Origin: Gammaproteobacteria bacterium
Lineage (GTDB): Bacteria; Pseudomonadota; Gammaproteobacteria; Steroidobacterales; Steroidobacteraceae
Direction: 5' to 3'
Assembly (NCBI GenBank): GCA_009923475.1
Contig: RFTM01000013.1
Location: 1 to 13,124, forward strand
DNA: 13,124 bases
Shown: piece after piece, positions 616 through 1,941 of the stretch
Layout: every line of letters begins with the position of its first letter
Numbering within the stretch: the stretch's first letter is position 1
The notes under the pieces: generated by a model
Databases searched by the model: none
The model's input: only the letters and a program-made list of their open reading frames with translations
What the model was told of the DNA's origin: nothing
Program-made: the position numbers and the translations under genes

Positions 616-1524
616 ATGGAACCTTACAACGCCACGGTCGTGCAGTCATCCGTCCGACCGGTCGTCAAGGCCGACGGCGGTTTCCGGCCGGAGGTGCTGC
701 GCGCCAACGCCGAGCATGCGGCCCTGCTGGTGCGGCAGGGGGCGGCGGCCTTCCGCAGCAAGCTGTTCGTGCTGCCCGAGTTCTGCCTCCACGGTTTCGA
801 GCTCGGGGTGCCGACCCCCGCCTGGTTGCAGGCGGCGATCGAGTTGCCCGGGCCCGAGATCGAGCCGCTCTGCCGCGCCGCCCGCGACACCGGCGCCTAC
901 GTCGCCGGCATGGCCTACGAGCGCATCCCGCAGTTCCCGGGGCGGTTCTTCAACACCGCCTTCATCATCGACCCGCGCGGCGAGGTCGCGCTGCGCTACC
1001 GCAAGATGTATTCATTGACCGGCAAGACCACGCCGCAGGACGTCTACACCGAGTACTGCCGGTTGTTCGGCGGCCCCGAGTCCCTGTTCCCGGTGCTCGA
1101 CACGCCCCTCGGGCGGCTGGGCGCGCTGGTCTGCTACGACATCCACTTCCCGGAGGTCGCGCGCTGTCTCGCGCTGCGCGGCGCGGAGGTGCTGCTGCAT
1201 GTCACCAGCGAGGCGCGCGGGCCGGAGCACTTCGAGGAGGGCGGCGGAGCCTGGAGCGCGGTGCGCAAGGCGCGCGCCTGGGAGAACGTCTGCTACCTGG
1301 CGATGGCCAACACCGGGCCCAACCTCGACTCGGACCTGCCGCCCAACGTCTGCCACGGCGGATCCCAGATCCTCGATTTCACCGGCCGCGCGCTCAACCG
1401 TTGCGAAGCCTGCGCCGATCAGCGTTGCGGAGATCGCTCGTCGCGAGATCGCTCGCGCGCGCGGCTCTATCTACCTCTGATCCTGCGACGCGGCCTACGG
1501 CGAGTGCCTGCAAGCGCGTCTTGA
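616..1524 (+). CDS. Carbon-nitrogen hydrolase (nitrilase superfamily), C-terminus replaced
   Basis: Predicted cytoplasmic amidase/nitrilase-type enzyme that cleaves non-peptide C-N bonds; the substrate is unknown. The Glu-Lys-Cys triad is visible: Glu55 in VLPEF, Lys130 in RYRKMY and Cys173 in LVCYDIHFPE. Family blocks continue through RKARAWENVCYLAMANTG and GGSQILDFTGRALNRCEA. After about residue 264 (base about 1410) the frame turns into an Arg/Ser-rich tail (ending LRRGLRRVPASAS) that does not resemble the family, where a short Glu-Ile-Asp-type strand and C-terminal helix would be expected. DNA from this point on looks phage-derived, so the native 3' end is lost. The catalytic core is complete, but loss of the C-terminal segment, which often helps dimerise these enzymes, may impair it. 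Start 616 is chosen on its ribosome binding site. It is divergent from the MFS gene. Confidence 0.85.
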   Translation: MEPYNATVVQSSVRPVVKADGGFRPEVLRANAEHAALLVRQGAAAFRSKLFVLPEFCLHGFELGVPTPAWLQAAIELPGPEIEPLCRAARDTGAYVAGMAYERIPQFPGRFFNTAFIIDPRGEVALRYRKMYSLTGKTTPQDVYTEYCRLFGGPESLFPVLDTPLGRLGALVCYDIHFPEVARCLALRGAEVLLHVTSEARGPEHFEEGGGAWSAVRKARAWENVCYLAMANTGPNLDSDLPPNVCHGGSQILDFTGRALNRCEACADQRCGDRSSRDRSRARLYLPLILRRGLRRVPASAS

Positions 1525-1840
1525 TGGTGCAAGAGGCGGATCCCAACGGAGGATCTGCTCATGCAGACCATGAATCTCGACAAGTTCCGCGAGGCGCTCA
1601 CCCTCGCGGCGCGCGTCAAGGGCGAGCCGGGCGTTGTTGCCCAGAAGAAGCTCATCCTCGACCGCTACATGATCGTGGACGCCGACGGCGTCGCGGTCGA
1701 TCCCGAAACACTTGATGTCACCATCGCTCCGGCCGCGCTCGCGGTCGAAGAGGACGCCGCCAAGCCGGCGGAGGAAGATCCCATGACCAACGAAGAGATC
1801 ACGAAGAGCGTCCGCGCGGTCGTCGCTGCGGAGCTGAAGG
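1410..1840 (+). mobile_element. Phage head-module fragment inserted between two truncated genes
   Basis: A piece of about 430 bp, lower in GC by eye and in third-position G/C than its flanks. On the left it interrupts the amidohydrolase after about base 1410; on the right it abuts purL, whose recognisable sequence stops at about 1842. It holds three parts in phage-like order. First is the tail of a plus-strand frame (about 1412-1483) encoding VAEIARREIARARGSIYL and ending in TGA. Then comes a spacer of about 75 bp, and then a strong ribosome binding site with the N-terminus of a capsid-like protein. No integrase, att site or terminal repeat is visible. Borders are inferred from where host protein similarity ends and may be off by several bases. 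The phage label rests on recalled resemblance to head proteins, not on a search. Confidence 0.5.
1548..1553 (+). promoter_or_regulatory. Strong Shine-Dalgarno for the phage-like capsid frame
   Basis: GGAGGA is seven bases before the ATG at 1561. It is among the best ribosome binding sites in the window and supports the frame at 1561 as a real, translated phage gene start. Confidence 0.6.
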
Positions 1841-1941
1841 CGTCGCCGCGCGCGAAGTGCGCCGCGAACATCTCGCGCAGGCGCGGGTTGAAGAGGATCG
1901 ACTTGGCCCAGCCCTCGCCCGCGCCCAGCACGTCCCCGTAG
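1561..1941 (+). CDS. Capsid-like phage protein, N-terminal fragment fused to antisense purL
   Basis: The first 90 or so residues read as a real protein: [24 protein letters not shown], then a [15 protein letters not shown] segment, an acidic Ala/Pro/Glu linker and [20 protein letters not shown]. This pattern (short helical start, IVDADG, ETLDV, acidic linker, helix) resembles N-terminal delta-domain-like regions of HK97-type major capsid proteins in siphophages, judged from memory rather than a search. From about residue 94 (base about 1840) to the stop, the frame is the antisense of purL ([11 protein letters not shown] and onward) and has no meaning of its own. The shell-forming fold is absent, so this is a gene remnant that cannot build a capsid. 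A second ATG at 1570 is possible, but spacing favours 1561. Phage origin is moderately sure; the capsid assignment is less so. Confidence 0.5.

Follow-up and report, generated by a model that had tools for sequence, protein, structure and literature searches.

The window analysed here, a stretch of 13,124 b that comprises the entire contig C25 of a draft assembly (G000; 2.45 Mb in 635 contigs, completeness 86.9%, contamination 3.6%), is very probably a technical chimera, to judge from comparisons of its sequence with related genomes and phages. Two unrelated host regions, one with an MFS gene and a carbon-nitrogen hydrolase gene on the left and one that runs from purL onward on the right, would have been connected through a short piece (475 b) of an unrelated tailed phage. 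The joins would have formed at short stretches in which host and phage are identical, either by template switching during library making or by the assembler taking a false route through its graph, and the event presumably took place outside the cell. The features of the window are listed in Table 1.

Table 1. Features of the window (position 1 is the first base of the contig)
Feature	Position	Strand	Remark
MFS gene			On the left of the contig, divergent to the carbon-nitrogen hydrolase gene
Carbon-nitrogen hydrolase (nitrilase family) gene, 3' end absent	616..1390	+	
Phage piece, 475 b	1382..1856	+	End of prohead protease gene, intergenic stretch, start of major capsid gene
Left join, word common to host and phage	1382..1401		Up to 20 nt, of which 9 (1382-1390) are fairly sure
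Phage prohead protease gene, last 32 codons and stop	1382..1480	+	L005 ORF end 4920 = window 1480
Shine-Dalgarno GGAGG of phage capsid gene	1548..1552	+	
Phage major capsid gene, first ~98 codons	1561..1856	+	Full-length gene is 461 aa in L005
Right join, word common to purL and phage	1836..1856		11 to 21 nt
purL, 3' end absent, about 1061 codons left	1836..5015	-	Pfam domains of FGAR amidotransferase
Site in purL that lacks 291 nt (97 codons, in frame)	3279..3280	-	From comparison with relatives
Genes beyond purL			DUF1820 gene, tRNA-Ser, MATE transporter gene, deaminase gene, multi-heme/TPR protein gene

A first-pass annotation had proposed that foreign, phage-like DNA separates two convergent genes that are both truncated, and this was borne out by seven phage contigs of IMG/VR (L002-L008), to which the piece aligned over its full length at 95.6-98.5% identity, free of gaps in six of the seven. 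Phage identity begins at 1382 and finishes at 1856, which corrects the limits of 1405-1845 given earlier, and both ends overlap words that are common with the host genes. In the phage contig L005, terminase and portal genes lie upstream of the equivalent region, the prohead protease belongs to the Peptidase_S78 family, and the complete capsid protein matches PF05065 (Phage_capsid) with a domain at residues 166-443. The stop codon of the protease gene (TGA) was found at 1478-1480 of the window. The strong Shine-Dalgarno that had been noticed earlier is part of the phage capsid gene, and the capsid-like N-terminus is indeed that of the L005-type protein: a search with the 98 residues from the start at 1561 gave 95-100% identity to the seven contigs. 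A Pfam search of the capsid-piece ORF itself returned no match, because the capsid domain starts further into the protein, and PHROGs returned a single match at E 0.25. With the 98-aa piece as query, nothing matched in a phage collection in protein mode; a DNA-mode search of the collection returned 44 records, and the 20 listed ones match over just 32-44 b (E 0.1-0.4). The full capsid protein had 2629 relatives among 7996 scored candidates, and the 120 listed have PF05065. The window holds a part of an HK97-type major capsid protein that lacks the PF05065 domain, and it is to be read as a fragment of a member of this family, not as a member.

Compared with the head genes of HK97-type tailed phages, in which a prohead protease gene is followed by the major capsid gene, the piece is an unaltered section of this arrangement, with no complete gene in it, and by its sequence the phage part reads as an ordinary tailed-phage fragment. 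It differs by at least 1.5% from the known phage contigs and so is not a copy of any of these. A different base composition had also been claimed for it. The direction of the difference stood (GC of 66.3% in the piece versus 70.4% and 71.7% in the flanks), but the signal is weak, with equally low values in 3.6% of 468 same-size windows outside the piece.

The gene on the right had been correctly recognized as PurL from the first, as its Pfam domains agree with this assignment. Its GATase_5 match covers profile positions 1-96 of 260, the purL frame is open past the right join to 1665, and DNA identity to G004 and L074 is 84-86% over 1836-3279. When the assembly was searched with the PurL C-terminus of G004, a second contig, C66 (L073, G000:C66; 4,985 b), gave a match with 90% identity over query residues 20-124, together with a match on its opposite strand with 97% identity over residues 1-30. 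Beside this purL end, C66 carries an ABC-transporter gene and an FtsX-type permease gene. In a relative, the MAG RE-18aug17-100, the purL region of the window and the region of C66 directly adjoin on one contig (L074): window 1836-5768 pairs with L074 4220 down to 1, interrupted by the 97-codon loss and at 4591-4648, which stays unaligned, and C66 4985 down to 386 pairs with L074 4210-8953, interrupted by a 156-nt loss near C66 3226-3233. Since the two parts adjoin in L074, the purL of the window natively continues into C66 and not into phage DNA, and the real genome presumably has an intact purL. In the FtsX-type permease gene, the 156 nt that C66 has fewer than L074 were lost between two short direct repeats that are kept in L074.

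The gene on the left was first read as an amidohydrolase and is in fact a carbon-nitrogen hydrolase, with CN_hydrolase (PF00795; E 4.1e-36, residues 39-273) as the sole Pfam family listed. Its probable start was set at the point where relatives begin matching. Identity is 81% to the hydrolase of G011 and 77% to that of G009. Homology to both is lost after about FTGR or FTGR-x-LN, where the relatives carry on natively, and the hydrolase frame is open across the left join as far as 1524. Together with the incomplete GATase_5 match, this agrees with the earlier claim that both flanking genes lose their ends at the piece. A search of the window's own assembly (86.9% complete) with the 88-aa C-terminus of G011 found no native hydrolase end, so that the missing part of a cut gene was recovered from the same assembly for purL and not for the hydrolase. 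The gene 3' of the hydrolase appears to be peroxiredoxin-like in G011 and sucA-like, in the same direction, in G009; both labels are our reading of the ORFs and do not derive from a family search.

The two flanks were not found together in relatives. At a threshold of E 1e-8, a hydrolase or MFS gene was detected at none of 25 purL loci (21 of them from a set of 80 loci); for 16 of the 25, the sequence past purL extends for 2.5 kb or more. Nor was purL detected at the two loci whose hydrolases are closest (G011 and G009). An intact hydrolase-purL region, which the first-pass annotation had suggested looking for, was thus absent from all of these loci, and the differing neighbours argue against a natural hydrolase-purL gene pair. 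The suggestion that phage DNA was inserted illegitimately and the native region lost is not supported either, since the purL end is still in the assembly and the flanking genes are never neighbours at the relatives' loci examined.

Both joins coincide with short words shared by host and phage, of 9-20 nt on the left and 11-21 nt on the right. At the left join the first phage mismatch (versus L004 and L005) is at 1402. The window encodes A where the eight closest hydrolase relatives have V, so that the host part probably ends at 1390 and 9 nt are common; if the host natively has the residues of the window, the word may extend to 20 nt. At the right join the whole 21-nt word is present in phages L002-L005 and absent from L006-L008. 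Read on the purL strand, the first nine letters of the word are found in L074 and the last ones in C66 (8 surely, up to 12), and the rest possibly stems from the C66 fold-back described below. L074 differs from the window at 1847, inside the word, and the shared length is therefore 11 to 21 nt. When sampled host and phage sequences were joined at random 1,000,000 times, the identical stretch across the join was at least 9 nt long at a frequency of 1.46e-4 and at least 10 nt long at 5.2e-5. Template switching and wrong graph paths typically produce joins guided by such words, and microhomology-mediated repair in the cell would give similar ones, so the shared words alone do not decide between them. 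Both joins could be 21-mer collisions in a de Bruijn graph; we do not claim this, because the right word is 21 nt long only with the window's base at host position 1847 and the left word may have just 9 nt.

Two further defects belong to the purL locus. The 97-codon segment is present at all 25 relatives' loci and absent from the window, and its best match elsewhere in the assembly has an E of 0.34; being in frame, the loss could also represent a natural deletion. In addition, C66 ends in a fold-back inside purL, with arms at 4866-4895 and 4956-4985 (30 nt, 97% complementary) around a 60-nt loop, and the turn lies within the same ~12 bases where purL stops in the window.

The chimeric join that the first-pass annotation had offered as one of two readings is thereby supported by the phage matches, the purL continuation on C66 and the short shared words, with the purL continuation as the decisive finding. 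We favour it because the piece matches seven phage contigs, the purL end is on C66, L074 is contiguous there and the two neighbourhoods are unlinked, and also because of the 97-codon loss, the fold-back at the same spot and the absence of this phage elsewhere in the assembly. What speaks against a chimera is that the hydrolase end was not found (in an assembly that is 86.9% complete), that fold-backs are not special to this assembly, that repair in the cell gives similar joins, and that the 97-codon loss is in frame.

The strongest competitor, to which we give only a small chance, is that the event was real and took place in the cell. Microhomology-mediated repair would recently have captured a fragment of a phage capsid region, and a rearrangement would have joined two distant parts of the chromosome and left purL disabled. 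This would have occurred in this natural strain or in a sub-population, and C66 would then derive from cells without the event. The short words at both joins suit such repair, as does a piece that is no copy of a known phage contig. However, two distant host regions, a phage scrap, the 97-codon purL loss and the C66 fold-back would all have to come together at one place, and purL would be disabled. Moreover, when the piece was sought in 24 genomes of the genus it was found in the window only, and two of the 23 others gave matches over 30 and 35 b.

That the piece is a remnant of an integrated prophage is far less probable still. The DNA is that of phage structural genes, but there are only 475 b, cut within two phage genes, where a prophage would be expected to show a sizeable set of phage genes and integration sites. 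A repeat search over 1000-2400 revealed no pair readable as att sites, and 10.3 kb of L005 compared with the assembly gave, besides the piece, six matches only (25-51 b, E 0.006). Against 147 genomes of the order, the full capsid protein found the window fragment and one partial match at 31%, nothing better, and an identity of 95.6-98.5% is unlike an old, decayed remnant. The earlier statement that ordinary prophage integration does not explain the piece therefore holds. Finally, open frames that run on to 1524 and 1665 could have made the piece a normal tail of the hydrolase gene or purL, a reading refuted by the full-length match to seven phage contigs, in one of which (L005) it spans protease and capsid genes downstream of terminase and portal genes.

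Faults of both library making and assembly have been described in print as sources of chimeras, as parts of two papers attest (PMC7299287, PMC4595205). According to part of the former, graphs of different genomes become linked by shared k-mers in metagenome assembly (PMC7299287). Chimeric contigs of short-read metagenome assembly likewise join different genomes at short shared words. The present contig differs from these in that it has three pieces and a left word of maybe only 9 nt, below usual graph word sizes. For multiple displacement amplification (MDA), passages of the latter describe chimeras with direct and inverted joins at short overlaps, which peak at 6 nt, are mostly 5-8 nt long, and link neighbouring places of one genome (PMC4595205). 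These two types are similar to what is seen here in the 97-codon loss and in the fold-back of C66. The overlaps at the phage joins are longer than those described for MDA and connect two organisms. The piece represents no new kind of insertion and is most likely an artefact, not a new biological arrangement.

There is no support for what the contig would suggest at face value: a link between phage and host, a hydrolase-purL neighbourhood, and a purL pseudogene with purine auxotrophy. The case also has value as a warning: once the other half of a cut gene is found in the same assembly and a relative shows the two halves joined, such cases can be all but settled even without reads.

We also considered whether the assembly is specially rich in fold-back chimeras, as from amplified DNA. 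A first count gave one fold-back in 22 contigs of G000 and one in 20 of G011. In a wider control, inverted repeats were found at 3 of 122 contig ends in G000 (61 contigs), 0 of 36 in G011, 20 of 40 in G005 and 4 of 38 in G023. This supports no difference, and the idea was dropped; since other assemblies of the genus also have contigs that end in inverted repeats, one of them far more often, the C66 fold-back is not usable as a sign of a special sample. In G000, inverted repeats also form the ends of G000:C36 (L219; 1-133; arms of 60 nt) and G000:C67 (L229; 3716-4977; arms of 76 nt), and that of L219 sits inside a gene read as flagellin-like. In G005, the terminal 25-mer recurs inverted within the contig at both ends of 10 of the 20 sampled contigs, all of 1.7-3.0 kb (L246-L248, L250, L255-L257, L259, L260 and L262). 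Within the window itself, repeated GLLGLLGL-like motifs occur in one forward frame at 12190-12480, after a DUF2147 gene, and may represent a low-complexity stretch.
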